The position numbers and the translations under genes were made by a program. This document shows, one piece after another, positions 818-60,773 of a stretch of DNA of 64,000 bases. Position 1 is the stretch's first letter; the number at the start of each line of letters is the position of its first letter. The stretch is from a virus. The DNA lies in the IMG/VR virus record IMGVR_UViG_3300028786_000007, positions 36,524 through 100,523 of that record, one strand, 5' to 3'. The notes beneath the pieces are model-generated. The model saw only the letters and a list, made by a program, of their open reading frames with translations, ran no database searches and had not been told where the DNA came from.

Positions 818-3800
818 ATGTTCAATTGGGATGAGCTGCTCTTTAATCCGAACCTGCTAACCCAACCCCAACCCGTCGTAGCGCCGGGCGGGTGGACCCC
901 ACGCCTAGAGCCCGTCAACTTCTCTCCCCAGCCTACACCCTCGCAGCCTACGGTGCAGCCTTCCTGGGCAGCGCCAAACTTGGAACCCGCCCTAAACCCG
1001 CGGGTTCCCTTTTCCCCAGTGGCCGCGGAGAACTATGACCCCTTCAAGGCGTTCGCCGCGGACGTTAAGGAGCCCAAGAAGCCCAACCTTGGGCTGATGG
1101 GCGAAAGCTGGGGCACGCTGAAGCCGGACGACCAGAAGAAGTGGCTGGACGACCAGTTCGCTGCTTACGAAACTGGTCAGCAGCGCATCAAGAACCTGGA
1201 AGGCTTGATCGCTGCCTCGCCGAGCCCGGTGGCGCAGCGCGCTTTGCAATCGCAACTGAATGCGACGCGCTCTACGCTGCCGGACCTCGCCAAGCTTAAC
1301 GAAATGCGGGCTGGCACCGCGCCGCTGCCGCTGAAGACCGGCCTGCGGGCCGGCGCGGAAAACGCTGTGCAAGGCTTCTCCGGCGCGGTTCTGGGTATCC
1401 CGGAGTTCGCGGGCATCGTCAAAGGCTACCTCGGCGATGAGAAGGTCGACGACAATACGCTGCTGAAGTGGGCGCAGGACGCCAAGCTGAAAGTGAATCA
1501 GCTGTTCCCCGGCGACGCGGCCCGCCAGGAGGATTTCTCCCAGAAGCTCGCCAACGGCCTGGGCCAACTCGGAGCGTTCTATGGCGGCGGCGCAGTCACT
1601 GCGCTACTGAAGGCCGGGCCGAAAGCCGTGGCGGCCGTGGTCACCGCGATGGGCGCTTCGGCCTCCGGCTCCCAAGGCTTTGAGGAAGCCACTGCGGAAC
1701 TCAAGAAAGCCCAAGAGGCGGCCAAGGCGGCCGGCGATACGGCGCAGGTCAGCGAGCTCGACCGTATCCTAAAGACCTTCGGCTATGCCGCGGTCGGCAC
1801 GACGGAAGCGCTGCCCATCGTCTCTACCTTCGCTCGAGTGGCCGCCCCCACGACGCGCATTGGTGCGCGGGTGGCCGGAGCCTTTGAGGGTGCGCTGGAG
1901 GAAGGTGCTCAGGAAGCGGCCAGCCAGCTTGCCCAGAACGCCATTACAGGCCAGACCACGGACCCGAATCGTCCGCTCGGCGAGGGCGTGGCCGAATCCG
2001 CGGCGATCGGCGCGGTCCTTGGCGGCGGTGCGGGCGGGGCCTTCGCCGGTAAGCCGGTCCCCGGCGTCGAGGAAGTCAACCCCTCCGTCGAAGCGCCTTT
2101 CGCGGGGCCGATGGAGATGAAGCCCGGCGAATCGCTGAGCTTTATTGACTTGATCCCGGACGAAAATGGCGAGTATTCCGTTGATGGTGGCCAGCGTGCG
2201 CTTAATGCTCCCGTAGCGGCCTTGCCGAGCCCCGAGGGGCCGGCCGCGGCTACCGTAGCGCCGGACTTGCCCCCCACGGCTCCTGCGGGCTCCTCGTCCG
2301 CCTCCGCGCCGATCACGCCGCCGCCCGGCACGAGCTTCTTCGATGCGGGCAGTTATGACGCGGCGTTGAAGGGTAAAGAGCTCGGCAAGGACGAATATTA
2401 CCATGGCGGCTCCTACAAGGGCGGCCAGAGCGACGGGGTGGTCTACCTTACCAAGAACCCGAACTTCGCTGACACCTATGTCACAATGGCGAAGGAGCGC
2501 GGTATTGAAGGCGCTGACCGCCAACGCCTCTCTGTTCCGCTGCAGGCCGTCGCGCCGATGGACGCAGTTGAGCGCGCGGCGACCGCGGCCGGCATTGATA
2601 CGGCCTCCAGCACGCCCGCTTCATGGTTCGACAAAGAGCTGCACGGCGACCAAGCTGTCAAATTGCTGACGCAATCGCTGAAGAAGGCCGGCTTCGACCA
2701 CGCCGTGTTGCCGGACGTGAGTTATGGCGGCGGTATGCAGGAGGATGTGACGGTCGCCTTCGGGCCGAATGCGAAGACTGCAGTGCAAGATGCCGCGGTG
2801 AAGGGTAAGGCCGCCGGACCAGACATGACCCGCCGTGGCTTCCTTAAGGGCCTGGGAGCGGCTGCAGGAGCGGCGGCCGTCGCCTCAACTGGCTTGCCTA
2901 AAAGCGTGGGGCAGTTAGCCAGCCCACCTCAAGCAGCAGCGACTCCGGTGGCAGCTGCTGCCCGGCCCGCATGGCGTCCTTGGAGTGAAATCACAAATCA
3001 ATACCAGTATCGGCCCCTAACAGCTCAAACACTTGATCCCAAGCGTTACGAAAAACTCGCCAAATTTGTCACCAAAAATATCGGCGGCAATGTCGACTTG
3101 GGTCAACAGCTTGCGGAAGGTAAGATCCAGGAGGTTGTCTTCGAAGGTCGGCCTGTGGGCTACAACATTGATATAGCCTTTCCCCACTACGCGACGCCTG
3201 ACTTCCGATTGCAAAATCACCCGTTTAAGCTGTACGAAAAAGCCTTTAATCCGCTTCCGTACCCCAAAGCAATTGAAGCTCAGAAGCAATCGGAAGCTCC
3301 GAAAGCCGAAAAACCCACCCTCCCCGAGCAGCCCTTCAAAGCCGTAGGTGGCAAGCCCGGCGACGTCACCCGCGCAATCGAAATCTCGCCGCAACTGAAC
3401 GCGGATCAGGTTGAGCAGCAAAGCAAGCTGCTACTGAACGCCGGCCGTACGGTGCAGCTGCCCGACGCGCTGACTGAGCCTTATTTCCGCGCGATCAACG
3501 CCCTGGGCAGTATGATCCCGGAGAATATCCCGGCGAACGTGCTCGTGGAAGTTCGGCCGTCCGGCGTTACCGAAAACGGTAAGCCGCTGATCAACGCGGT
3601 GTTCCGGACCGCGGCCGGCGCAGAGCAGATGGTGCAAGGCACCTGGGAAGAGCTAACCGACGTCCGGGCCTTTTACATGCCCGCTGGCGGCGGGGCCGCT
3701 CACGGCCTTTTCCTTCTTCCGTTGGATCCGAGTCAAAGCGGCTCCGATCGTCTTGGGGGCGTATTGTGGCATGAGATTCTTCATGCCCTCCGCCGAGAGG

Positions 3801-6800
3801 GGCACCTGCCCGCCCGTGACTGGAATCGGCTTCTTGGCCATGCGACGGACCTCGATATCCTGGGCCAAAGGTATCAATCCTTTGCGCAGGCGACCCGTGA
3901 CCCATACGCAAAAGACTACGAGCCGAACGGCACCATTCGTGAGCTTTATGCTGAGTTCAACGAGGGCCGACCGGACTTTGATGAGGCCATGGCTCAGGAA
4001 GCCGTCGCCCACATGCTGGAACAGTATAGCCACGGTGCGCTCGATGCACAAGCGATGGCCCCCATCCAGGATGTGCTGGACAACATTAAGAATGGCGCAT
4101 ATGCCCAGCCCGTGACCGGCGCGGAGGCGGGGCCGATTGATCAGGCTCGGCAGGGCGTTAAGCTCCCGGAAGGCGTCGTGCGCGTGTATCATGGCACGGT
4201 GCGGCCGGACTTCGAACGCTTCGACACGTCCAAATCGGAACATGGCGGCGACGCCTACTTCACCGAAAACCCTGAGCTCGCTAACGAATTTGCGGGCGGT
4301 AAATACCCGGAATCATTAGAGAACCCACCCTATTCACTGCCCTATAATTCTGCGCGTCGGGTGATCCCGGCGGATATGGACGTGACCGGCTTTAAGCGGG
4401 TGAAGTTCGGCAGCTGGCTGCTGGGCCCCTATGAGTGGACCCGCGACGACGGCGCGAAGCTGCAGAAGGCGGTCGATCAAGCCAAGGCGGAAGGCTACAA
4501 AGGCCTGGTCGCGGAGGGCATTACTGATCAGAAAGTGAAGGGTTCTCAGTACATCACCTGGACCCCGGATACGGTCAAGCACGCTTTTACCCAGAAGCCG
4601 CTTTATGCGCTGTTCGGGAAATGGGGCAAGGGAGAAGCTAGGACGGGAGAACCTGCCCCAGAGCTGCCGAAAGATCTTGAGTACCTCAATAAGTCAACTA
4701 CAGAAGAGTGGGCCACGGCCAAGTATTCTAAGCCGTTATTTGCCATTGAAAACATCCCCGGCACCGTTTCTTATGAAATTAGTAAAACCGTTCTTCAAAA
4801 TTCATTGACTGAAACTACAAAGTGGATGAATGAGAAGAATATCGGCGGCACTAAAAATGAACTCTACGACCTGACTTTCAAGAAAATCTTCATCAAGAAC
4901 ATGATGAAGATGGGCCAAGATTACCTGCAGAAAGAAGGATCTGGCCCCAAAGAAGCAGGAATATACCTTACGGCTGCTGCGGCAGGATTGATGCCGGGCT
5001 CTGGACAACCTGTTTTAGCAAAGGCCCCACTCACAGAAACTGGACCAGCGAAGCCGGCCGGGCCGAAGCCAGCGACGGACTACACCAAAAAAGAGATCGA
5101 CGCTCTAAACGACGCGGATTGGGCCACGGCCAAGTACCTCAACCCGTATTACGCCGTCGATTCATTGACGGGCTTCGCCCACGAGACGGCCACTAAGCTT
5201 TTGAAGGAGGCTGCGAAGAGCTCGGAGCCCCTCAAGAAGAAATTTCTGTTCAGTATCATCACGGTCGCTAACGTCTGGTCCACCTGGGCTGAGGGCTCAA
5301 AGAACAAGCAAGCCAGCGATCAGCTGCTCGCCGCGGCGCAGTTACTGCTGCCCGGTTCGATCCAGAAGCCCGCGGCCCAATCGGGAACCACGGTCACCAC
5401 GTCCTACGGCCATAAACTGGCTGAGAAAAATAAGGCCGCCTTCAAGGCTGAGATCAATAAGACGCTGGATCAGCTTGTTGCTGTCGGCGAGAAGAAGACC
5501 TCAAAGCCCTTCACGGTTCAGCAAGCCTCCGAATACGCTGACGCCCAGCACCCCGGCGCAGGCGTGACCATCGACAACCTTATGAGGTGGAATGAGGGCG
5601 CGGACACCGACCCAAAGCTCTTGGCGATAGCCATTGAGGAATTGTTGGCGGACCCAGAGACCAGCGGCATAGACATTTCCGAAGACCCCCTGCAGCTGGC
5701 CGTCCTGCAAGATATTGTGGCGATGCTGGAGGGGCAAAAGAGCCCGCCTGAGCCCACTACAGCGCAGACTTCCATCACCGTCGACCAAGCCTTGGAATAC
5801 GCCAAGACTCAAGACACTGATGCCTATTTCGCTCTCTATGACCTCGTCAAAGGAGCTTTCAAGGGAACGGATAGCGCCAAGCTCGACCCTGCACAGGTCG
5901 CCGACGCCCTTATTGACCATCTTGAGAACCAAGATGAGCCGATTACAGCGGCTGACTTCAAGTCAGACACGGTCCTCAACGATATTGCCGGGATGCTATA
6001 CGGGCACAAGTCGCTGCCCGAGCCGGAGCCGGCCGCAGTAGAGGCGGCCGGAAAAATCATCATGGCCGCCTTTGGCGACTATTATTGGTTCCAGGAAGCC
6101 AAAAATAATGCTGCAGCTAAGGTCAAGTCATCAGACGTTAAGAACCAAACACCTGCCTTTAAAACAGCCATTGCTGAGCACCTGAGCAGTCTTGCACCTG
6201 CATTTGCTCCGGAGTTTCAAGTGGCTTTTGGCAAAGCCATTGATATCCTGGGGGGTGTAAAGCCTACCGAGCCAGAGGCCGCTAAGCCTGCGGAAGACCC
6301 CCTAGAAGCGGCCGAAAAGATCATGAAGGATTACTTCGACCATGCCGATTGGTATTGGCAAGGGGCGAAGAATTACGGTGCCGCCCAAGTGACATTGGCT
6401 GATGTCAAAAACAAAACGCCAACATTTTATGCCGCGGTGGTGGAGGGCTTAAAGGAAACCGCTAAAACGCTTAAGCCTGGGGCGAAGGCAGCGATCCAAA
6501 AGGCCATCGACGTTCTGGAAGCTGGTAAGAGCAAGACTCTTGCCACCGCGGAAGATCCCGCCTTCAAGACCCTCGCCGAGGCGAATAACTACGCCAATGA
6601 GCTAGGCCCAGACGTGCAGGCTGCTTTCGTTCAAGCGCTCAACGCAACGAACAAGAAGCTGCCCCATGCTGTCAATTACATCAAATTGGACGAGACCAGC
6701 AAAAACCTCGCTGTAATCGCCATTGAGACCCCTGATGCAGAGCTGAAAAGTAAGCTGCTGAAGATGATTAACGGGCTATATGCCGGCTCCAAGGCGCTGA

Positions 6801-9800
6801 AGAAAGCCGGTGACACTGGTTATTACTCACCGTCGGCTGAGGCCGAGCCAACCCCGGCGAAGAAACCCGCCAATCCCACGGGACACGCCATAGCCGACCC
6901 CGCGAGCGGGCTCGCCTATGAGATCGCCACCAACGCCTTCAAGGGGGCCAAGTCAGACGCGCAAAGCGCCTGGGAAATGGACCAGCCGGTTAATGCGGAA
7001 ATAGCCAAGATCGCTAATCTGAAAATTAGCGAAGCGGCAGGTGCAGTCCCCCTCACTGGAGTAGGTTCGCTGAGTGAGCCCGAGCTGAACCAGCTCCAGA
7101 AAATCTATGAGCAGCTGAATGCTATCGAGGGCGGCACCTTCGAGAGCGCCGCCGCGCCCGCACCCAAGACCTACAAGCACGTCACGAGCGCCCTGAATAA
7201 GTTCGTTGCGGTGTCCTATAAGGGCAAAAAGCATATCCAGGAGCAAATTCAGACGCTCTACGAAGCGGCCTTCAAGGACAAAGGTGCTTTCCCGGTCGTT
7301 TCCAAGACTGCTGAGTTCAAAACGGAGCTGGTCAAATGGCTGCACAACGTCGCTCAGCAAAACGGCAGCTCCGACTTAGCGAAAGACTTCAGTAAATTTG
7401 CGGAGACCATCGATACTTCGGAAGGCGACGGCACCGTCGAAGAGCCTAAGCCTGAATTCAAGCCCACGCTCAGCTTCGAAGACATGATCCCCGCGCCGCA
7501 GCGAGAATACACCTTCGCCAAGAATGCGGGCGGCGGCACCAAGCCGAAGGAAATCTGGACCGACGAAGAGGGCAAGGAGTACCTGTTCAAGCCGGTCAAG
7601 AAGGGCGACGAGTTCGTTGCCTACGGCGAAGTCGCGGGCGGCCACATCTCCGCCCTGGTCAACCCCAAAGCCCCTAAAATCTGGCTCCAGGAGCTCAACG
7701 GCCGGACCGGCTCGATGCAGGAGATGCTGCCTAACGGCGGCGACCTGGGCGACGTAGCGATTGAGGACCTCACCGGTGCGGAGGTCCAATCGATCATGCG
7801 CGAACACGTGGTGGATTGGCTGATCTCCAATCATGATGGTCACCGCCGCCAGTTCCTGATCATGGGTGACGGCTCGCTGGTCGGCATCGATAAGGGCCAA
7901 GCCTTCAAATATTTCGGCAAGGACAAGCTCGACGTTGACTACCACCCTAACTCGCAATACGGCGAGGAGGAGCCAATCTACAATAAGATGTGGCGCGCGC
8001 TGGTGGCCGGCAAGCTGACCAAGGCAACGAAGGACATTCTCGGCCCCGACGGAGATACTGAAGCTGTTAAGAAACAGTTAGGAGAGCTGCGTGCAAAATT
8101 AGCAGAAATTGCTCCTGAGGCTGAGAAAGCGCAATCTTGGCTTGTTAATTTTCAAAATGGACTGAAGTCGGAAGTTCGGTTACTGACTGATGCTACCAAT
8201 GATGCTGAGTATGAAGATGCTCAGGATATGCATATGGCCTTGAATGCCAGGCTGTCCTCCATAGAAGAGGAATTTCTACAGGACGCTGAGGAAAAACTCA
8301 AACTTGAGCCGCAGGAATGGTGGATTGCCGGTGAGCAAAAAGGCCGGTCTTTCTTTGCGTCCAAGGATAATAAGCAGGCCCGCATAGGCGCTTCGTACAA
8401 TCAATTTATCCCGGTCTTGGCCAAGACGTGGTTCCTGCCGCAGAATGGCATCACCCTAAAGGAAGCGCAGGAGATCCTCGGAAAGACCCACCTTCATGCG
8501 GGCTCCTTCCTAGAAACTCATGGCTACAGTCAAGAAGCGGAAAAATATGCTACCGCGCTACGCGACAAAGGCTATGACCACATCAAATTGAGCGATGATG
8601 CCATCGTTGGCCTCATCGCGCCGCAGGTCGTGCAGCCCTGGGAACCGATCACGCAAGAATACCGCGATAAGGTTCATGTTGCTGCCAACGGCTATCTGGG
8701 CGACCTGCTCCGCAGCATGGCCCGGAATCTCAGAAACCCGGAAGCTCGGAAGCTACTGATTCGGCAAGCTGAAAAGTTTGAAAAAGCCAAAGGGGAATTA
8801 CTTTGGAACAACGACATCCTTCCTGAACTGGAACAAAGCATAGACTCCACTGTACTGGTGGGTTGGCGCGTCAGCATCAACAACCTCATTAATGACCGAT
8901 ATGCAGCCCTAACCCAAAAAGCAGAAACGCAAACTGATTCGGGTAATTTTTGGTCTGATCTGGTCAGTAGAACTCAATATAATTTACGCACTAACCTCTA
9001 TAATTTTGGTGTAAAGGCTCAAAGTTTACATCCAGCTGAGGGTGAGTATTCTCAAGGCCAAGTTGATGAACTCAAGAAAAGTAAATTTGCCACTGAGTTT
9101 CAAATATCTGAACTTGAGAATCAAAACGATACTGTCAAATTTGACAGTATCTTCTTCAAGGCCGCCAACGAAGCTGTCGATATTTTGCAAAACAAACTCT
9201 CGGACGACAACTTCTTGGGGCTGATCAAGCCCTATGCGGAACGTCGTTTCAAGGGCCGGCCGAACAACCTTGATGCCTTTCTGGACTACGCGCTGCAGCG
9301 GAAGGGCAACCTCGCCAACAAATTCAACCGATTTTTTCTAGGGTTGCGCACAGATCAAAAACGACGCAGCGACGCCGTTAGGGAGGTGACGAGCAGCAGC
9401 GACTACACTGTGAAAGAGTGGAAAACCACAGTCGCAGACATCAATAAAACTCACGGCATCAATCTGACCCCGGAAGAATATGGGGCCATAAATGCCTACA
9501 CGGGCTCTTCCTTCCGAGGCGTAAACAACACGTTACGCACTGGTACGCCGTGGGAAGCGGAGAAAAAGCTCAGCAATGAGTGGCTGAGAGACATGAATTT
9601 TGCGGACCTGATCGAAAGCGGGTTGCAGAAGATCAAGCCCTACACAGGCACCGCATGGCGGGGTCAGGTAGTACACTCCGATGAACTGGCACGCTTACTG
9701 CCCGGTCGCGTACTCACCAATAAGGCATTTTGGTCAACGTCTTATAGCCCCGGTAACGCTTTCAACGGCAACGTGAAATTCATCATTGAATCGAAGAGTG

Positions 9801-9970
9801 GTCGCAACATTAAGTTTTTGTCCGGCCATGCCTCTGAAGATGAGGTGCTGTTCCCAACGGAACGCCAGTTCCTGATCACTTACCGGGAAGAAGGGACCAA
9901 CAAGCACGGTGATCCCTGCACAGACATCTACCTGACCGAGCTGCCGGAGGTAGATTTCAATGCGCTTTAG
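818..9970 (+). CDS. giant polyvalent protein with ADP-ribosyltransferase, metallopeptidase-like and kinase-like modules
   Basis: This 3050-residue protein probably enters the host with the DNA. From N to C: a Pro-rich start; Gly/Ala-rich hydrophobic stretches (about 200-410); an ADP-ribosyltransferase-like module (about 525-660, EYYHGGSYKGG); a Tat-like segment TRRGFLKGLGAAAG (about 671-700); a zinc-peptidase motif HEILH (985-989); a second ART-like module (about 1121-1260, RVYHGTVRPDF); helical repeats (about 1288-2205); a HipA/PI-kinase-like module (about 2227-2400) with NHDGH (2338-2342) and GID (D2358); and a C-terminal R-S-E class mono-ADP-ribosyltransferase with R2948, STS 2973-2975 and E3007-x-E3009. 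LSFIDLIP (440) and LSFEDMIP (2218) precede modules. Domain calls rest on motifs; cellular targets are unknown. It starts one base after the upstream stop. Confidence 0.85.
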   Translation: MFNWDELLFNPNLLTQPQPVVAPGGWTPRLEPVNFSPQPTPSQPTVQPSWAAPNLEPALNPRVPFSPVAAENYDPFKAFAADVKEPKKPNLGLMGESWGTLKPDDQKKWLDDQFAAYETGQQRIKNLEGLIAASPSPVAQRALQSQLNATRSTLPDLAKLNEMRAGTAPLPLKTGLRAGAENAVQGFSGAVLGIPEFAGIVKGYLGDEKVDDNTLLKWAQDAKLKVNQLFPGDAARQEDFSQKLANGLGQLGAFYGGGAVTALLKAGPKAVAAVVTAMGASASGSQGFEEATAELKKAQEAAKAAGDTAQVSELDRILKTFGYAAVGTTEALPIVSTFARVAAPTTRIGARVAGAFEGALEEGAQEAASQLAQNAITGQTTDPNRPLGEGVAESAAIGAVLGGGAGGAFAGKPVPGVEEVNPSVEAPFAGPMEMKPGESLSFIDLIPDENGEYSVDGGQRALNAPVAALPSPEGPAAATVAPDLPPTAPAGSSSASAPITPPPGTSFFDAGSYDAALKGKELGKDEYYHGGSYKGGQSDGVVYLTKNPNFADTYVTMAKERGIEGADRQRLSVPLQAVAPMDAVERAATAAGIDTASSTPASWFDKELHGDQAVKLLTQSLKKAGFDHAVLPDVSYGGGMQEDVTVAFGPNAKTAVQDAAVKGKAAGPDMTRRGFLKGLGAAAGAAAVASTGLPKSVGQLASPPQAAATPVAAAARPAWRPWSEITNQYQYRPLTAQTLDPKRYEKLAKFVTKNIGGNVDLGQQLAEGKIQEVVFEGRPVGYNIDIAFPHYATPDFRLQNHPFKLYEKAFNPLPYPKAIEAQKQSEAPKAEKPTLPEQPFKAVGGKPGDVTRAIEISPQLNADQVEQQSKLLLNAGRTVQLPDALTEPYFRAINALGSMIPENIPANVLVEVRPSGVTENGKPLINAVFRTAAGAEQMVQGTWEELTDVRAFYMPAGGGAAHGLFLLPLDPSQSGSDRLGGVLWHEILHALRREGHLPARDWNRLLGHATDLDILGQRYQSFAQATRDPYAKDYEPNGTIRELYAEFNEGRPDFDEAMAQEAVAHMLEQYSHGALDAQAMAPIQDVLDNIKNGAYAQPVTGAEAGPIDQARQGVKLPEGVVRVYHGTVRPDFERFDTSKSEHGGDAYFTENPELANEFAGGKYPESLENPPYSLPYNSARRVIPADMDVTGFKRVKFGSWLLGPYEWTRDDGAKLQKAVDQAKAEGYKGLVAEGITDQKVKGSQYITWTPDTVKHAFTQKPLYALFGKWGKGEARTGEPAPELPKDLEYLNKSTTEEWATAKYSKPLFAIENIPGTVSYEISKTVLQNSLTETTKWMNEKNIGGTKNELYDLTFKKIFIKNMMKMGQDYLQKEGSGPKEAGIYLTAAAAGLMPGSGQPVLAKAPLTETGPAKPAGPKPATDYTKKEIDALNDADWATAKYLNPYYAVDSLTGFAHETATKLLKEAAKSSEPLKKKFLFSIITVANVWSTWAEGSKNKQASDQLLAAAQLLLPGSIQKPAAQSGTTVTTSYGHKLAEKNKAAFKAEINKTLDQLVAVGEKKTSKPFTVQQASEYADAQHPGAGVTIDNLMRWNEGADTDPKLLAIAIEELLADPETSGIDISEDPLQLAVLQDIVAMLEGQKSPPEPTTAQTSITVDQALEYAKTQDTDAYFALYDLVKGAFKGTDSAKLDPAQVADALIDHLENQDEPITAADFKSDTVLNDIAGMLYGHKSLPEPEPAAVEAAGKIIMAAFGDYYWFQEAKNNAAAKVKSSDVKNQTPAFKTAIAEHLSSLAPAFAPEFQVAFGKAIDILGGVKPTEPEAAKPAEDPLEAAEKIMKDYFDHADWYWQGAKNYGAAQVTLADVKNKTPTFYAAVVEGLKETAKTLKPGAKAAIQKAIDVLEAGKSKTLATAEDPAFKTLAEANNYANELGPDVQAAFVQALNATNKKLPHAVNYIKLDETSKNLAVIAIETPDAELKSKLLKMINGLYAGSKALKKAGDTGYYSPSAEAEPTPAKKPANPTGHAIADPASGLAYEIATNAFKGAKSDAQSAWEMDQPVNAEIAKIANLKISEAAGAVPLTGVGSLSEPELNQLQKIYEQLNAIEGGTFESAAAPAPKTYKHVTSALNKFVAVSYKGKKHIQEQIQTLYEAAFKDKGAFPVVSKTAEFKTELVKWLHNVAQQNGSSDLAKDFSKFAETIDTSEGDGTVEEPKPEFKPTLSFEDMIPAPQREYTFAKNAGGGTKPKEIWTDEEGKEYLFKPVKKGDEFVAYGEVAGGHISALVNPKAPKIWLQELNGRTGSMQEMLPNGGDLGDVAIEDLTGAEVQSIMREHVVDWLISNHDGHRRQFLIMGDGSLVGIDKGQAFKYFGKDKLDVDYHPNSQYGEEEPIYNKMWRALVAGKLTKATKDILGPDGDTEAVKKQLGELRAKLAEIAPEAEKAQSWLVNFQNGLKSEVRLLTDATNDAEYEDAQDMHMALNARLSSIEEEFLQDAEEKLKLEPQEWWIAGEQKGRSFFASKDNKQARIGASYNQFIPVLAKTWFLPQNGITLKEAQEILGKTHLHAGSFLETHGYSQEAEKYATALRDKGYDHIKLSDDAIVGLIAPQVVQPWEPITQEYRDKVHVAANGYLGDLLRSMARNLRNPEARKLLIRQAEKFEKAKGELLWNNDILPELEQSIDSTVLVGWRVSINNLINDRYAALTQKAETQTDSGNFWSDLVSRTQYNLRTNLYNFGVKAQSLHPAEGEYSQGQVDELKKSKFATEFQISELENQNDTVKFDSIFFKAANEAVDILQNKLSDDNFLGLIKPYAERRFKGRPNNLDAFLDYALQRKGNLANKFNRFFLGLRTDQKRRSDAVREVTSSSDYTVKEWKTTVADINKTHGINLTPEEYGAINAYTGSSFRGVNNTLRTGTPWEAEKKLSNEWLRDMNFADLIESGLQKIKPYTGTAWRGQVVHSDELARLLPGRVLTNKAFWSTSYSPGNAFNGNVKFIIESKSGRNIKFLSGHASEDEVLFPTERQFLITYREEGTNKHGDPCTDIYLTELPEVDFNAL

Positions 9971-17604: not shown

Positions 17605-17641
17605 GAAAGATGTCCTTTTGGTTGGAATGCCAGGCCATTGG

Positions 17642-17712
17642 AAGGGTGGATGGGAGTTGAACCCACTTATCCGGATTTGCAATCCGTCACATGACCGTTC
17701 TGCCACCACCCA
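17642..17712 (-). tRNA. tRNA-Cys (GCA), somewhat degenerate
   Basis: On the minus strand the sequence folds as a cloverleaf of about 71 bases. The anticodon loop is TTGCAAA (GCA, cysteine; anticodon at 17680-17678). The T-arm is GTGGG-TTCAACT-CCCAT. The acceptor stem TGGGTGG pairs with CCACCCT with a T-T mismatch at the first pair. The anticodon stem has one outer mismatch and the D-stem is weak. No CCA is encoded. It lies directly upstream of the SPFH-like gene. Confidence 0.75.
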
Positions 17713-22082: not shown

Positions 22083-22415
22083 GTGTCTAAGGCAAAAGTC
22101 ATTCAGTTACAGGATAGTAAAAAACTCACAGATGTTCAGAAACGCAGCGCAAATAGTGCGCTAGCGGAAGGCGTCGATGCAGATGATGAGGCGAAATACT
22201 TAGAAGACTTGCGCGGAGTTGTGTGGAAGGAAGCGGGCACCGGCAGCGGCAGTTGGAAAAGCCTCGCTGAAAAGGCCGGCCTCGCGGATATGACCGTGCG
22301 CCGGTTCGCCACCGGTGAGACGAAGCGCCCAACCCTATTCACCATCCGCCGTATGCTGGCGGCGCTCAACTACCGGCTAACCTGGCAGAAGATCCCAAGG
22401 CAGAGGAAAAAATGA
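22083..22415 (+). CDS. small HTH transcriptional regulator (XRE-like)
   Basis: This gene encodes 110 residues from a GTG at 22083 with an AGGAGG site 8 bases upstream. The second half is a helix-turn-helix of the XRE/antitoxin type (SWKSLAEKAGLADMTVRRFATGETKRP), followed by TIRRMLAALNYRLTW. It sits directly downstream of the symmetric divergent promoter, so autoregulation and control of the leftward gene are plausible. The stop overlaps the RNA ligase start by four bases. Confidence 0.75.
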   Translation: MSKAKVIQLQDSKKLTDVQKRSANSALAEGVDADDEAKYLEDLRGVVWKEAGTGSGSWKSLAEKAGLADMTVRRFATGETKRPTLFTIRRMLAALNYRLTWQKIPRQRKK

Positions 22416-23428
22416 GCACTCATTCCGTCAATATTGTGGAAATCCCAGAGGTTCTCCCGCACGACAACGCTGACCGGCTCGGCATTGTGCATATCAACGG
22501 GTGGAGCTGCGTGGTCGCCAAGGACCAGTTCAAGACCGGCGACAAGGCGGTTTACGTGGAGCCGGACTACGTTGTGAGCACCTCCCATCCGGCCTTCGCC
22601 TTCCTGGCTAAGGGCAAGGAAGGTAAGCTCGACCACCGCATGAAGGCGATCCGGCTCCGTGGCCAGCTTAGCTTTGGGCTGCTGATCCCGGTCCCGGAAG
22701 ACCTTCAGGACTTACCGGTCGGCTCCGACGTCATGGAGCCCCTGGGCATTCGTCGTTACGAGCCGCCAATCCGGTTCATGAAGGCCGGCGCGGACGATTC
22801 GCTGCCTCAGGCAGAGTGGCCGCAGCTCTACATGCCGAAGTTCGACCTGGAAGACCTGCGCAAGTTCGAGAACCTGATGTTTGCGCCGGGCGACCGCGTC
22901 TTCGTGACGGAGAAGCTGCATGGCGGCAACGCCCGCGTGGTCTGGCACAACAACCAGCTTTACATTGGTTCGCGGAACCGGTGGTTGAAGCCGGACAGCC
23001 GCAGCGCATGGACGCATTCGCTGCTGAACGATGAGCAGTTTGCGCCCGGCATCCTGGAGTTCTGCAAGAAGCACCCGGACGTGACGTTCTATGGGGAGGT
23101 GTACGGCCCAGTGCAGGAGCTGCGCTACGGCTTGACCAACCCACGCTTCGCCTGCTTCGCCGCCCTGGAAAAGGACCAGTGGTGGGACATGGAGAAGCTC
23201 TATAATAAGCTGACTGAGCATAATATCCACCGCGCGCCGCTGCTCTATGTCGGCCCCTTTGATCGGGAGCTGATCGCGGCGCTAGGGGAAACGGACAGCG
23301 AGATCGAAAGCGCCGGGAAGGGCCATATGAAGGAAGGCGTCGTGATCGTCGCGGAGCCGGCCCGCATGCACCCCAACCTAGGCCGGGTGGCGCTGAAGCT
23401 GATCTCCAACCGCTATTGGCTGAGTTAA
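22412..23428 (+). CDS. RNA ligase of the Rnl5/DRB0094 type
   Basis: This 338-residue protein has an N-terminal OB-fold-like part (VNIVEIPEVLPHDNADRLGIVHING) followed by a nucleotidyltransferase domain. The adenylylation lysine is K168 in EKLHGGNA (motif KxxGxN), and later motifs include FYGEVYGPVQEL and a C-terminal GVVIV...LKLIS. In Deinococcus Rnl5 the enzyme seals RNA nicks with ATP. Phage RNA ligases commonly repair tRNAs cut by host defence nucleases. It is coupled to the Nudix gene by a TAATG overlap. Confidence 0.85.
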   Translation: MSTHSVNIVEIPEVLPHDNADRLGIVHINGWSCVVAKDQFKTGDKAVYVEPDYVVSTSHPAFAFLAKGKEGKLDHRMKAIRLRGQLSFGLLIPVPEDLQDLPVGSDVMEPLGIRRYEPPIRFMKAGADDSLPQAEWPQLYMPKFDLEDLRKFENLMFAPGDRVFVTEKLHGGNARVVWHNNQLYIGSRNRWLKPDSRSAWTHSLLNDEQFAPGILEFCKKHPDVTFYGEVYGPVQELRYGLTNPRFACFAALEKDQWWDMEKLYNKLTEHNIHRAPLLYVGPFDRELIAALGETDSEIESAGKGHMKEGVVIVAEPARMHPNLGRVALKLISNRYWLS

Positions 23429-34628: not shown

Positions 34629-34916
34629 CTAGAAGGGTGACAATTCGGCAAGGCGGTTGCGCCCTTGCTCATTAATGAAGAAGGTTCGTTTGCGGGTACG
34701 GGCGGCCGGATCATCGCCGATATCGATGTAGCCACCGCAAGTCAGGTTGATTATCGCACCGTAAATGGTCGCATCTAGGCGCTTACTGATCGGAGAAGTG
34801 GGCGTCTTGAGCAACTCTTCAATTATGGTGCTGCCCTTGGTCGGGCCATTCTTGTCCAGGTAAAGCAGCACCCGATAAGGCCATGTATTCCAGGGCATCG
34901 TCTTAGCCTTCTTCAT
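34629..34916 (-). CDS. winged-helix-like DNA-binding protein
   Basis: This 95-residue protein reads PYRVLLYLDKNGPTKGSTIIEELL, then DATIYGAIINLTCGGYIDIGDD and a basic C-terminus. The helix-helix-wing order resembles small winged-helix repressors. It overlaps the recombinase gene by four bases, so it could regulate it. Confidence 0.55.
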   Translation of the reverse strand: MKKAKTMPWNTWPYRVLLYLDKNGPTKGSTIIEELLKTPTSPISKRLDATIYGAIINLTCGGYIDIGDDPAARTRKRTFFINEQGRNRLAELSPF

Positions 34917-35557
34917 ATTTCCACGCTCCTGGCGATCGCCGCGGCGTCTTCCTGGTCGATGCCCAAATAAGCGGCCGTCGCACCGAGCGACTTGTGGCCG
35001 AGCAACACGCGCACCGCAGCAAGGTTCTTCGTCTGGGCATAGATCTCCTTGGACTTTGTGCGCCGGGTAGAGTGCCCGCTATAGCGTCGTGGGTCCAGGC
35101 GAATCATCAGCGCCAGTTTCTTGATGATATTGCGATATTGGCGATCGGAAATGCCGAACAACAACTCTTTTGGATCCAGGCACTCGCGTCGCATTAGGTA
35201 GGTGTGCAACGCGGCGCATGTTTTCCGGGTGAGCTCGCACCTTATCGGTGCACCGGTCTTCTTCTGCTTCAGCCAGAAACTGGTCAGCACTTCGGGCCGC
35301 GAATTGCCCGGCGTTAGGTCGCCGACCGTAAGCCGGATCAGGTCCGAGCCGCGGAGCATCGTGTCGATAGCGAGACGAAAAAGTGCAAAGTCGCGCATCG
35401 CGAGCGGACACCTACTATTGATAAGGAAATGCTCAATCAGCGCTACCTCTGCGGGTGTAAACGCTTCGGACTGACCGCGGACTTTAGACGTTTCCGTTTT
35501 CTTGGGTTGCACTGCTTTTACGGAAGTTTTTATATCGCGCTTCGCCCGCTGAGCCAC
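34913..35557 (-). CDS. short tyrosine recombinase
   Basis: This gene encodes 214 residues from a GTG with GGGGAG upstream. The catalytic set is present: R69 (MLRGSDL), K100 region, H162-x-x-R165 (GHSTRR), H188 (LLGHKS) and the nucleophile Y197 (AAYLGI). The core-binding and arm-binding N-terminal domains of typical integrases are missing, with only a basic tail instead. It may integrate the phage, resolve multimers or invert DNA; I see no att site pair to decide. Confidence 0.85.
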   Translation of the reverse strand: MAQRAKRDIKTSVKAVQPKKTETSKVRGQSEAFTPAEVALIEHFLINSRCPLAMRDFALFRLAIDTMLRGSDLIRLTVGDLTPGNSRPEVLTSFWLKQKKTGAPIRCELTRKTCAALHTYLMRRECLDPKELLFGISDRQYRNIIKKLALMIRLDPRRYSGHSTRRTKSKEIYAQTKNLAAVRVLLGHKSLGATAAYLGIDQEDAAAIARSVEI

Positions 35558-49155: not shown

Positions 49156-49731
49156 CTAGGTTGGCCCGCTTTGGCCGTGTTCGAAGCGTGCTGAGCGCGC
49201 AGCAGCTAACGCTGCTTTAATTTCATTATGGGTGATGATGCTATCCCAATCGTCTTCTTGTATCCAATTGCTCCAGACATGACCCATGCCAAGCTCTCCG
49301 CAAATGTCCCTGCCATAGTCGTAACACCCGTGACAGTATTTGTTGCAACAGTAATAATCCCGAGCTAATTGGACATCTCGGTCAATACCGTGTTCGTGAA
49401 AAGAGGTTATGGTAAAACGCCCTAACTCAGGACTACCCGCAAAAGCGAACACTTCATAGCCCGTGAGCTCTTGCAGAGCCTTGCATTTGCGCTCTTCTTC
49501 GGCAGTCAGAAGAGTGGGTTTGATCTCCAGCCAGATGCCATCTTGGTGCAGGCCAAGCTCCGGGGTCTCCAGCCAAAAGTCTGGAAGATACAAACCAGCA
49601 TCCCCCAAGTCATAACCTTCCTTCTCATACAGCCATGGTACGCCCAAGGCATCGAAGAATACAGCCCACCGCGCCTCCAAGCGTGAGCGGAACATGTAAC
49701 CTTTGTATCGGGTCGGGATGGGAGTGATCAT
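49156..49731 (-). CDS. PD-(D/E)XK-type nuclease-like protein
   Basis: This 191-residue protein fits a phage/actinobacterial nuclease family: RYKGYMFRSRLEARWAVFFD, LGVPWLYEKEGYDL, YLPDFWL and WLEIKP. It has the active-site order E (RLEARW), D (LPDF) and E-x-K (LEIK). The C-terminal part has five cysteines (YYCCNKYCHGCYDYGRDIC). It lies next to the candidate origin. It may process phage or host DNA. Confidence 0.7.
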   Translation of the reverse strand: MITPIPTRYKGYMFRSRLEARWAVFFDALGVPWLYEKEGYDLGDAGLYLPDFWLETPELGLHQDGIWLEIKPTLLTAEEERKCKALQELTGYEVFAFAGSPELGRFTITSFHEHGIDRDVQLARDYYCCNKYCHGCYDYGRDICGELGMGHVWSNWIQEDDWDSIITHNEIKAALAAARSARFEHGQSGPT

Positions 49732-49776: not shown

Positions 49777-50048
49777 CGGAACGGTGGTCGCAGAAGCGTT
49801 CCTGATCACCGTTCCGCCCAGAAGGGCCAGGATTCATGGTGCAACCCCTTATCGGAACTCCGGAACTCTCGGAACGGAAGAATAGAAATATAAGAGAAAA
49901 GAGCCCCTAGTGCCTCCTGGGCACCGTAGGATTATGCCCCGTGGAAAAATGCGAATTTATGCGATCCTTCGTTCCGTAGGTGGTGCAACACGTGACGGAG
50001 CCAGTGTTTTTCACGGAACGCACGGTCCCGTTCCGCGCACCCGGAACG
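49777..50048. repeat. cluster of ten CGGAAC(G) iteron-like repeats
   Basis: Forward copies start at 49777, 49853, 49861, 49870, 50014 and 50042. Reverse copies (CGTTCC or CGTTCCG) start at 49797, 49810, 49970 and 50029. Some pairs form dyads, for example 50014 with 50029. The density is far above expectation for a 6-7-base word. Confidence 0.75.
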
Positions 50049-50060
50049 CAAAAGCCATAA

Positions 50061-50089
50061 AAATGCCCCGCGGATGAGGCGGGGCATTT
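50061..50089 (-). terminator. bidirectional intrinsic terminator after the primase-helicase gene
   Basis: AAATGCCCCGC (50061-50071) pairs with GCGGGGCATTT (50079-50089) across 7 bases. On the minus strand the run TTTTT follows. It ends the primase-helicase transcript. Confidence 0.9.
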
Positions 50090-50110: not shown

Positions 50111-52813
50111 CTAGAAGGGTATCTCTTCTTCGAAGTGGGCCTGGGTTTCAATGATGTCGTCTGTTTCAGCAACATTTTCGGACATGACGAAGGTACGGTC
50201 ATCCTTCATGCGAACCATTAATTGCACTTCTCTGAATTCAGATGTGCTGCCCCTGACATAGCCACGTGCTTTCTTGTGCACGCCATTCGCCTTGAAACGT
50301 AACGAGGCATTATCGAAGCCGAGTTGCTTCATCACTTGGGAGATGCGTAAAGTGTCGTGGCGGCGGAGTTTGTCAGCTGTGATCCCCACTAACCTCCACA
50401 CGTCTGAATTGAGGATCTTACCTTGCAGAGTACCGAGCAATTCGTCCAGATGCTCAACCCATGGGTCTAGGATCGACCGTTCAGATTGTTCGGCAGCAGC
50501 CTCGGCCCACAGTACCTGATCCATACGGATGCTGTCACCGCGCGCCTCTAGGGTGGCAGCTTCGGCCCAAAGCTGGTCGCGGTCTGCCAATAAGCCCTCA
50601 AGGTCGAAGCGTTGCGTCAGCACAGGCCAGAAACGACGCTCACCGGTAGGGTCTTCCAGATACTTTTTCTCATTGGTGGTGGCGAAGAACACGCATTGAC
50701 GTTTGACGCTGACTGAGAGCTTACCGTAGGAAAGCCGGGCGCGGTCTTCGGTTCGGCTTAATTGAGCCTTGATTTTGTTGACATCAGGCTTGTGCTTCTT
50801 ATGCAGGTCCGCAATCTCAACGATCCACTTTCCTGTCATCTGTTCGATCATTTCTTTCGAACTGGCTCCGAGCGGCAAGTCGTCCAAAAACCATTCCTCC
50901 CGAACAGCTAGTATCTTGAGCGCCGTGGACTTGTTGGTCCCCTGGGCTCCTTCCAATACTGCCATTTCGTCAAATTTTGCACCCGGCCGCCTTAAGCGAC
51001 GCACGGCCGCTACGAGCATGAGCTTACCGACAGCATTGGTGTATGGCGTATCCTTGGCACCACCATACGTGGTCAACCAACCATTAAGCCTTGGTATCCC
51101 ATCCCAAGAGAGGTTGCCCAGGTAATCAAAAACGGGATGAAACGTATTGGCAAGGCAGGCATTGGTGATCACGTCGTAGAAATAATTCTTTGTGGGTCTG
51201 AAACCAAAGATACGATCAATGGTAAGCCATAGCGACGTCACCGCGGCGTCGTTAAGCTCCGGACCGAAACCTTCAAGCCCGTCTATCAGCAATTGGTCAG
51301 CAAAACGGTTATAGCTGAGCCGAACACCGAGCCGGCGCAACGCCACGAGGATATTACGCTCGGTCTTGAGCGGCGGGCCGGGCACCCCATTGGGACCAGC
51401 ACCATGATCAAAGCGCATCTCTCTGGGCAGAGGGCCATCGTCTTGAGGCGGCTCACTGCCCGGCGGAGGTGGGGGCGGCGGCGTAGCACCATTCCCGAAG
51501 CTACTTGTAGCCTCAGGTGGGTGACTTGGAGCTTCCCCACCCTCCGTAGGAGGCGGCGCGGAGGGTACAGTCGCGCCGTCAAGCGCTTCCGCGGCCTTGC
51601 GTGCATCAAATGCTTCTTTTGCTAACTTGGCCGCAGCTTTCTTGACCTGACCTGTCACCCCCCGCATCAGTTCGGCCCCCCGTACTTCGGTGGTGGAGAC
51701 CTTTCCTGCCCTATTCGCCGGGAAGCGCATGTGCTCAGAAACTGCGAAGCGTGGGTCAGACAGAACTGCAACCACACCCGGCAGCGGCACGCCGGCTTGT
51801 TGGAGCGCGCGGTTGACGCGGTGGAACGGAGCATTACGGTCGATGACCATTTGCCCGTCTACAGCCTTTGTGGGTAAGTCTTCTCCCTCCGGATGGAGAT
51901 ACCCACCCAGTAGGATCAGTTCAGTGGTCTTCGGCCGCACTTCTGGGTAGCGTCGCACAAGTTCTTGTACTGCTTCCCAGGCGTCTCCTTGAGGTAAGGG
52001 CGTCCAATTGCCTTCGATCCGGACCGCTTCCACGGCCTCGGCGCACGGGCCGGCGTCGCCGGTGTCTACCCAACCGAACAGGTCGAGGGTGTATTTCCGT
52101 TCCAGGGCGAACTGCAACTCAGGCCATTCGGGTGGCCGCAGCCAGTTAGCGAGTTCGGGCCGACGACCTTTGGCGATCTTTTTGGCGGTGGGGATATTTT
52201 GCGTGCCGGGAAGCCGGGCGATGCGATCGACGTTATGGCAATCATCAGCGACCTTGAGCTCAAGCTCTTTGTTGATGATCTCGGCGAGCCATTTGTTGTG
52301 GCCGCCTGCGCGATGCGCGTTGTCGCGGCAGTCTTGTTGCGTAGCCCCGCGCAATGAATACGGCTCAACTAAGTCCCAGAACGCCCAATATCCGCCGCCA
52401 CTATCCACTATCGAAGTAGGGCCGCCAGGAAGGCCAATTTTCTGGAGGCGCGCTTCGTCTAGTAGCAAAGCGAGAATGGCTCTGCGTTGGTCATCGACAT
52501 GGGTTGGGGAGTTGTAGTCCGGGTCGATGTCAACGTGGAGCCGCTCGAGGTGCGAGACCTGTTCCAGCTTCGACTTCGTGGCATGGCCATAGGTCGGATT
52601 GATGTGGAAATACAGGTTGACGCGGCCTGAGCGTTCCCTGACCCACCGCCCCATCGCAGTTATTGTGCGCGGCCCAAAGGTCTCTGACCGCAGCGTGCCA
52701 TCGTGGATGGACGTAAGCGTCCAAGGCCCGTGGAGCCGAATAGCCTTCAGGAAATCGAAGGCCGTTGAATAATTCCCAGTTTCTGGGCGAGGATCAGTCG
52801 TATCCCCGCTCAT
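50111..52813 (-). CDS. primase-helicase (primase-polymerase plus VirE-type SF3 helicase)
   Basis: This 900-residue protein has an N-terminal part with the primase/polymerase acidic motif HVDIDPD (D95 and D97) in a fold typical of phage and plasmid primase-polymerases. A Pro-rich linker follows (about 410-480). The C-terminal helicase is of the virulence-associated-E type, with Walker A EGAQGTNKS (about 619-627), then KWIVEIADLHK and CVFFATTNEKKYLED. It probably primes and unwinds at the neighbouring repeat cluster. ATGA overlap couples it to the upstream gene. Confidence 0.85.
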   Translation of the reverse strand: MSGDTTDPRPETGNYSTAFDFLKAIRLHGPWTLTSIHDGTLRSETFGPRTITAMGRWVRERSGRVNLYFHINPTYGHATKSKLEQVSHLERLHVDIDPDYNSPTHVDDQRRAILALLLDEARLQKIGLPGGPTSIVDSGGGYWAFWDLVEPYSLRGATQQDCRDNAHRAGGHNKWLAEIINKELELKVADDCHNVDRIARLPGTQNIPTAKKIAKGRRPELANWLRPPEWPELQFALERKYTLDLFGWVDTGDAGPCAEAVEAVRIEGNWTPLPQGDAWEAVQELVRRYPEVRPKTTELILLGGYLHPEGEDLPTKAVDGQMVIDRNAPFHRVNRALQQAGVPLPGVVAVLSDPRFAVSEHMRFPANRAGKVSTTEVRGAELMRGVTGQVKKAAAKLAKEAFDARKAAEALDGATVPSAPPPTEGGEAPSHPPEATSSFGNGATPPPPPPPGSEPPQDDGPLPREMRFDHGAGPNGVPGPPLKTERNILVALRRLGVRLSYNRFADQLLIDGLEGFGPELNDAAVTSLWLTIDRIFGFRPTKNYFYDVITNACLANTFHPVFDYLGNLSWDGIPRLNGWLTTYGGAKDTPYTNAVGKLMLVAAVRRLRRPGAKFDEMAVLEGAQGTNKSTALKILAVREEWFLDDLPLGASSKEMIEQMTGKWIVEIADLHKKHKPDVNKIKAQLSRTEDRARLSYGKLSVSVKRQCVFFATTNEKKYLEDPTGERRFWPVLTQRFDLEGLLADRDQLWAEAATLEARGDSIRMDQVLWAEAAAEQSERSILDPWVEHLDELLGTLQGKILNSDVWRLVGITADKLRRHDTLRISQVMKQLGFDNASLRFKANGVHKKARGYVRGSTSEFREVQLMVRMKDDRTFVMSENVAETDDIIETQAHFEEEIPF

Positions 52814-59913: not shown

Positions 59914-60773
59914 TGACATCAGGTAAGACGACCAACGCTCGCGGCGGCAAGTCCGTTGCTGTGGTGGAAGACGAAGCTAACCTTCCGGCCGTGGTTGACT
60001 ATGGCGGCTATGAAGGGGCGGGTTTCGAGGATATGGGGCGCGATGATTTCGCGACGCCATTCCTATCAGTGCTGCAGCCGACCTCCAAGATTCTCGTTGA
60101 GAACGACGAGATGCGGCCCGGCATGCTGCTCAATACCGTGACGCAGATCCCCTACCCGGCCGAGAAGGCCAAGAATCACCCCGGTATCGTCTTCATTCCC
60201 TGCTGGCGGCAGCACATCTTCGTCGAATGGAAGAAGCGCGATGAAGGCGGCAACGGCGGCGGCTTCGTCGCTCAGCACGAGCCCGGTTCCGCAATCGTGG
60301 AAGCGGCTAAGGCGAAATACGATTTCGGCGCGCTGGAGCACAACGGTAACGACCTGATCGAGACGTTCTACGTCTACGGTATCCACGTCATGCCCGACGG
60401 CACTTGGGAGCACCTGATCATCCCGTTCACGTCGACGAAGATTAAGCCGTACAAATATTGGATGACACGGCTGAATACGATCCAAGTTCCTGGCCCGAGT
60501 GGCAAGGCTGTCAAGCCGCCGATGTTTGCGCACCGCTTCCGGATGAACACGATCTTGGAGAAACGCGACGCCGGCCTGTCCTACAACTTCGTGATCGGCT
60601 TCGACGGCGACAACGCTCAGGCGTGCCGCATCGAGCCCGGCAGCGAGCTGTTCAACGAGGCCGCGGGCTTCTACCAGCTTTGCAAGGATGGCATTGCCAA
60701 GCCGAACTATGATGCGCCGGCCGCCCAAGAAGCGGGCGGGACCACGATCGACGGCGACGCGATCCCGTTCTAA
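59913..60773 (+). CDS. SSB-like protein with acidic IPF tail
   Basis: This gene encodes 286 residues from the ATG overlapping the upstream stop (TAATG). It ends in DGDAIPF, the type of tip used by bacterial SSB to recruit partners. The body is beta-rich (PFLSVLQPTSKILVENDEM). It is related in pattern to phage single-strand-binding-like proteins. It probably coats single-stranded DNA during replication. The strict SSB fold cannot be shown here. Confidence 0.65.
   Translation: MTSGKTTNARGGKSVAVVEDEANLPAVVDYGGYEGAGFEDMGRDDFATPFLSVLQPTSKILVENDEMRPGMLLNTVTQIPYPAEKAKNHPGIVFIPCWRQHIFVEWKKRDEGGNGGGFVAQHEPGSAIVEAAKAKYDFGALEHNGNDLIETFYVYGIHVMPDGTWEHLIIPFTSTKIKPYKYWMTRLNTIQVPGPSGKAVKPPMFAHRFRMNTILEKRDAGLSYNFVIGFDGDNAQACRIEPGSELFNEAAGFYQLCKDGIAKPNYDAPAAQEAGGTTIDGDAIPF

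Follow-up and report, generated by a model that had tools for sequence, protein, structure and literature searches.

A conserved GGAAC iteron cluster directly 3' of a PrimPol/VapE primase-helicase gene as a probable replication origin of an uncultivated 100-kb phage

What is the function of a dense array of short repeats that fills a non-coding gap beside the putative replication initiator gene of an uncultivated phage? The array lies in a stretch of 64,000 nucleotides (henceforth the window; bases 36524-100523 of a 100,523-base viral contig) whose genes encode a portal protein, a terminase, a family A DNA polymerase, a ribonucleotide reductase, SNF2- and Dda-type helicases and an integrase-like protein. 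The integrase-like gene (window 34913-35557) suggests that the phage may be temperate. The window also holds a gene for a 3050-aa protein (818-9970), whose C-terminus matches head maturation protease and ADP-ribosyltransferase families and which weakly matches virion RNA polymerase as well, a tRNA-Cys gene (anticodon GCA; 17639-17712, minus strand) and an RNA ligase gene (phrog_968; 22412-23428). A first-pass annotation had read the array as iteron-like and as a candidate origin next to the primase-helicase gene. Our analysis supports this proposal: the cluster lies 3' of the gene, flanks a candidate strand-opening segment, is conserved in a relative and has a layout that recurs in other phages. 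We therefore hold it to be highly probable, judging from sequence, that 49777-50047 is an iteron-type replication origin of the phage.

Iterons in the gap behind the primase-helicase gene

The cluster occupies the gap between the primase-helicase gene with its terminator and a nuclease-like gene, both genes being on the same strand:

49156-49731, minus strand: nuclease-like gene, 191 aa, outside the candidate origin (phrog_21138, 2e-35; phrog_945 endonuclease, 2e-6)
50061-50089, minus strand: terminator hairpin after the primase-helicase gene, with an 11-bp perfect stem and a T run on the minus strand
50111-52813, minus strand: PrimPol/VapE primase-helicase, 900 aa, putative initiator; 64 nt separate the end of the gene and the last iteron

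In the 900-aa protein, a PrimPol domain at the N-terminus is predicted to be followed by a VapE-like AAA+ helicase and, at the C-terminus, by a tail of DNA-binding type. Residues 567-779 match PF05272 VapE (1.2e-65) and residues 53-209 match phrog_2478 polymerase/primase, while the best sequence match in the PDB is the VapE entry 7pds (4e-39), named as similar to D. nodosus vapE. In a structural model that is reliable locally (mean pLDDT 44; roughly 50-80 at residues 14-250 only), the N-terminal fold matches RepB' (3h20) and the CAPP Prim-Pol (7nqf). The C-terminal 170 aa are homologous to other VapE proteins (hhalign 98%).

The repeats are arranged in two arms, each with outer and inner copies:

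49777-49782, plus strand: CGGAAC iteron, outermost left copy, with its inverted-repeat partner at 49804-49816
49798-49803, minus strand: AGGAAC variant iteron, outer left arm; the relative reads CGGAAC
49811-49816, minus strand: CGGAAC iteron, outer left arm, 43 nt before the inner triplet
49853-49858, plus strand: CGGAAC iteron, inner left triplet, spaced by 8 and 9 nt
49861-49866, plus strand: CGGAAC iteron, inner left triplet
49870-49875, plus strand: CGGAAC iteron, inner left triplet
49971-49976, minus strand: CGGAAC iteron, inner right copy
50014-50019, plus strand: CGGAAC iteron, outer right arm, 44 nt beyond the inner right copy
50030-50035, minus strand: CGGAAC iteron, outer right arm
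50042-50047, plus strand: CGGAAC iteron, outer right arm

The first-pass annotation had counted ten copies of CGGAAC, six forward and four reverse, a count that holds for the core GGAAC (ten copies in 49777-50047; 6+, 4-) and not for the full hexamer. CGGAAC itself occurs nine times (6+, 3-), seven of the nine reading CGGAACG, and the tenth core, reverse at 49798-49802, is part of AGGAACG. Another CGGAAC at 49688 was excluded from the count, as it lies inside the nuclease gene; all iterons are intergenic, given a nuclease start at ATG 49731, the start favoured by the phrog_21138 alignment (residues 2-189).

That the copy number lies far above chance was borne out. The rest of the genome predicts 0.18 CGGAAC and 0.60 GGAAC per 272 bases, and the clustering of the nine CGGAAC copies has a Poisson P of 4e-13, or about 7e-7 when corrected for 2080 words x 740 windows. 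In 20 Markov-resampled genomes the maximum per 272 bases was 6 copies for 6-mers and likewise 6 for 7-mers, compared with 9 and 7 in the real sequence. A comparable word density elsewhere in the genome, which had been named beforehand as an observation that would speak against an origin, was looked for across the 100,523-base record, and the cluster proved to be the densest in it for any 6-mer and any 7-mer.

Conservation and a segment of low stability

We asked how much of this arrangement is kept in a relative, G001 (IMGVR_UViG_3300006853_000555; 100,568 bases), which was reached via its portal protein and carries its cluster at locus L143. Its primase is 67-68% identical to that of the window, and in the gap on the 3' side of that gene stand ten GGAAC cores whose order and orientation match those of the window (+ - - + + + - + - + in both phages), together with one extra core. 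Start-to-start spacings of the cores are 20, 13, 43, 8, 9, 100, 44, 15 and 13 in the window and 31, 13, 43, 8, 9, 129, 44, 15 and 14 in G001, with a large change of length in two gaps only. Nine of the ten cores stand at exactly aligned columns, the outermost-left copy (49777) being one column off, as against 48 of 277 other 5-mers that are preserved (Fisher 2e-6); likewise, 47 of 50 motif columns are identical, compared with 135 of 231 others. This copy-by-copy conservation refers to one independent relative, since the phage of a third contig (L145/L147) is almost identical to G001 and does not count as independent; a single-sequence primase search of IMG/VR and a genome scan for close homologues returned remote relatives at most, or none.

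Many viral CGGAAC clusters are in-frame tandem repeats on one strand, and the cluster could in principle be such a coding repeat or a chance accumulation of a word. We give this practically no credence: the cluster is intergenic, runs on two strands and is unique in its genome, and its conservation in the relative refutes the idea.

Constraint extends beyond the iterons, most clearly in one block:

49983-50019, no strand assigned: most conserved non-iteron block, 37 nt (GTGCAACACGTGnCnGAGCCAGnGTTTTTCACGGAAC), nearly identical in the relative

The three differences within this block are spread over first, second and third codon positions, which suggests a non-coding constraint. It contains TTTTTCACG, which is one mismatch off a relaxed DnaA box. 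In G001, a plus-strand frame through the cluster (about L143 5288-5407) reads like a small lipoprotein (MKTAIFTVLAFLAACNTWQSQG...); a short conserved ORF across the region was rejected, as in the window this frame is interrupted by a stop and lacks a start.

The terminator hairpin is kept in G001 with a different hairpin sequence. The nuclease protein found no match there. Since the cluster is kept nonetheless, it seems to go with the primase gene and not with the nuclease gene, which also makes binding of the cluster by the nuclease less likely.

The AT-rich patch that the first-pass annotation had seen between the repeats also proved real, in the form of one segment:

49873-49903, no strand assigned: DNA-unwinding-element candidate (AACGGAAGAATAGAAATATAAGAGAAAAG...), from nearest-neighbour stability

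The 30 bases from 49873, which follow the inner triplet directly and sit between the inner iterons, reach the 99.98th percentile for duplex instability across the 100.5-kb record. An unstable segment lies at the equivalent place in the relative (L143 5195), at the 99.95th percentile of 16 kb.

These observations bear on two other functions that an array of binding sites might serve. One is regulation, with a repressor or activator on the GGAAC sites controlling either the genes downstream, from the nuclease onward, or the primase operon. Such an operator array would be in keeping with a cluster between two same-strand genes that has a terminator on its primase side, in a phage that could be temperate given its integrase-like gene. 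We nevertheless regard it as unlikely, because the array is kept in the relative where the downstream nuclease was not found, the cluster region has no match to a sigma-70-type promoter, clusters recur 3' of primase-helicase genes (see below) rather than at one kind of regulated gene, and mirrored arms around an unstable segment suit strand opening better. The other is partition of a plasmid-like phage stage. Partition sites also typically show arrays of short repeats in both orientations, so that the array has the look of a centromere-like, parS-like site; this function is more improbable still, as such arrays follow primase-helicase genes across phages, no ParA/ParB-type family was found among the window proteins scanned (part of the genes), and an unstable segment lies inside the array.

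A further possibility is that folding of the DNA, rather than the binding of iterons, is the signal, as proposed for the stem-loop origins of pRN1 and BIP-1. The gene type (PrimPol plus SF3-like helicase) and the 3' position after a terminator are the same, and the cluster strand folds better than shuffled sequences in both phages (z -3.3 and -3.6). The inverted repeats of the iterons would themselves yield such folds, however, and the predicted folds are unlike in the window phage and the relative, local hairpins excepted, whereas the GGAAC cores are kept. A large pRN1-like stem-loop of about 100 nt was rejected, the two relatives having no common fold, and we consider a stem-loop signal very improbable here.

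GC skew was dropped as evidence on an origin, being ambiguous and confounded by gene direction: the detrended minimum falls at window 52.1 kb, but the raw cumulative curve, beyond record position 60,000, is lowest at 42.0 kb. The DnaA box TTATCCACA, as would be expected beside the iterons of a DnaA-dependent iteron-plasmid origin, is absent from the cluster of the window. Taken together, the conserved iteron cluster is real and is, on this evidence, very probably a functional origin.

Recurrence near other primase-helicase genes

We took 11 diverse VapE phages from a tblastn list, picked by protein similarity and blind to DNA words. In seven of the 11, a 7-mer is repeated at least six times within 320 nt of the roughly 6-kb locus (resampled VapE-locus maxima, 4-6; RcMrWorf, with 6, equals its maximum), and in the other four no such cluster was found. 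Five of the seven clusters lie within 500 nt 3' of the VapE gene, one lies 1.6 kb downstream and one upstream. LPPA36, APSE-3, Rosalind, Dina, RcMrWorf, PT1 and Vibrio 1.009.O (L288, L290, L294, L296, L297, L292 and L293) each have a word of their own near the gene; thus, the word is not fixed. The words GGGACA, GGTGACAA, GGGGCACA and CGGAACA look alike, which may reflect related reader domains. In APSE-3, the annotated putative origin is at another site, on the 5' side of the VapE gene. For Alphaproteobacteria, a VapE survey produced too small a number of loci to be of use. The survey of the 11 phages picked by protein is the least biased support for a putative origin function 3' of the gene.

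In a second approach, loci were picked by word, by scanning viral contigs for three close copies of CGGAAC; many of these loci are mutually related. Among the matches listed, the scan returned in-frame coding repeats (tandem, on one strand), along with at least about 30 loci whose clusters run in both orientations. The clusters of the 34 both-orientation loci that we examined are mostly intergenic, many of them directly 3' of a gene for 550-930 aa; family searches on a sample placed these genes among primase-helicases of several kinds, namely Prim-Pol + AAA_25, DUF927 + Cch HTH, DnaG-type, Toprim, phrog_21086 and VapE/DUF5906. Exceptions are L026, with a terminase nearby, and several loci that have no large gene whose 3' side they adjoin. 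Some clusters are near-perfectly mirror-symmetric, as at L065 (---+++---+++, with spacings 10, 12, 43, 9, 9, 63, 9, 9, 43, 12 and 11). In one Prim-Pol/AAA_25 clade, a perfect DnaA box TTATCCACA stands beside the iterons at L035, L041, L046, L050, L051, L064 and L127 (seven found vs 0.25 expected).

Clusters of mixed orientation made up 27 of 119 matches listed for CGGAAC, two of 120 for the reversed word CAAGGC and 13 of 120 for ACGGAC, all three counts taking in related loci. All five ACGGAC loci that were checked likewise adjoin primase/helicase genes on the 3' side; iteron clusters are therefore common, with a word that varies, and this control weakens the notion of GGAAC as a universal phage origin code, GGAAC being frequent and not universal. 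CACGTG as a second shared element was rejected, being no commoner across loci than chance would give. A C-terminal reader domain shared across the GGAAC primase-helicases was rejected too, there being no detectable homology except between the window protein and other VapE proteins.

Pseudomonas phage phi3 (Phitrevirus; L153 5240-5550) resembles the window in having GGAAC cores, 17 in number, directly 3' of its primase gene and around an AT-rich segment. Its primase, in contrast, is of Toprim type and of an unrelated family, and no origin is annotated at its cluster. The related P2-like phage PaBSM-2607-JFK (L152 5227-5600) has TGGAAGG at the same place where phi3 has CGGAACA. This difference of word is a natural specificity switch, and the pair offers a natural system for mapping how an initiator chooses its iterons. 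A comparison of phi3, L077 and PaBSM as a way to locate specificity residues was rejected, since the C-terminus shows no local drop in identity.

Unrelated primase-helicases may conceivably share an origin grammar, with mirrored iteron arms spaced by 8-12 nt, about 43 nt between outer and inner copies, an unstable centre and a place 3' of the gene; the recurrence of GGAAC with C-terminal tails that share no detectable homology would then mean a common reader protein or convergent recognition. We put this forward tentatively, as a doubtful but possible generalization. For practical use, the recurrence supports the rule of searching directly 3' of a primase-helicase gene for a word that clusters densely on both strands about an unstable segment. 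The rule yields candidate origins for Pseudomonas phi3, PaBSM-2607-JFK and LPPA36, Paenibacillus Rosalind, Corynebacterium Dina, Rhodobacter RcMrWorf and APSE-3, where no origin is annotated at the place in question. For the uncultivated 100-kb phage group studied here, it provides a precise and testable candidate.

A model for initiation and its likeness to known systems

How might such an origin fire? We infer that the PrimPol/VapE protein would be the initiator, binding the ten GGAAC sites via its C-terminal domain and forming hexamers on both arms. The loaded protein would melt the AT-rich segment from near 49873, between the inner iterons, and prime DNA synthesis there, whereupon the family A DNA polymerase of the phage and further helicases would extend the forks, presumably in both directions.

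Known systems provide a frame for this model. The Rep helicases of SaPIs recognise iterons directly downstream of their own gene, and Cch2 of SCCmec binds AAGTG iterons directly downstream of its gene via a C-terminal domain (PMC7581432). In pRN1, the origin lies 3' of the ORF904 PrimPol-helicase gene, after a terminator, and consists of a stem-loop of about 100 nt without iterons (PMC4234260), a source that also cites winged-helix binding of iterons by the alpha protein of phage P4.

P4 alpha combines the roles of primase, helicase and origin binder in one protein that acts on short iterons, as the putative initiator of the window would. It is a Toprim-type primase, however, whereas the N-terminal domain of the window protein matches PrimPol and not Toprim. 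The iteron word of P4 differs from GGAAC as well. With pRN1 the window shares an order of elements: first the gene for PrimPol plus SF3-like helicase, next a terminator hairpin, and behind it the origin (here a candidate). It differs from pRN1 in having conserved iterons, and no large stem-loop common to the two relatives could be found. The layout of the window thus departs from the stem-loop of pRN1 and the Toprim primase of P4, and it has no DnaA box.

The closest likeness is to SaPI Rep and SCCmec Cch2. As in those systems, the putative initiator is an AAA+ helicase of the VapE/Cch class (PF05272, 1.2e-65; 7pds, 4e-39), short iterons lie in a non-coding gap directly downstream of its gene (49778-50047; gene end 50111), the iterons appear to be under selection and enclose a low-stability segment (one independent relative), and the C-terminal tail of the protein occupies the position of the iteron-binding domain, which it may represent. 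Differences are that the window belongs to a phage of 100 kb that itself encodes a family A DNA polymerase, and not to a satellite or cassette, that PrimPol is fused to the helicase, and that the word is GGAAC, in both orientations and two arms, rather than the AAGTG of Cch2. The layout itself is thus of a known kind, and the wider pattern behind it is moderately interesting; as far as sequence can test it, the layout fits the SaPI/Cch kind on every feature.
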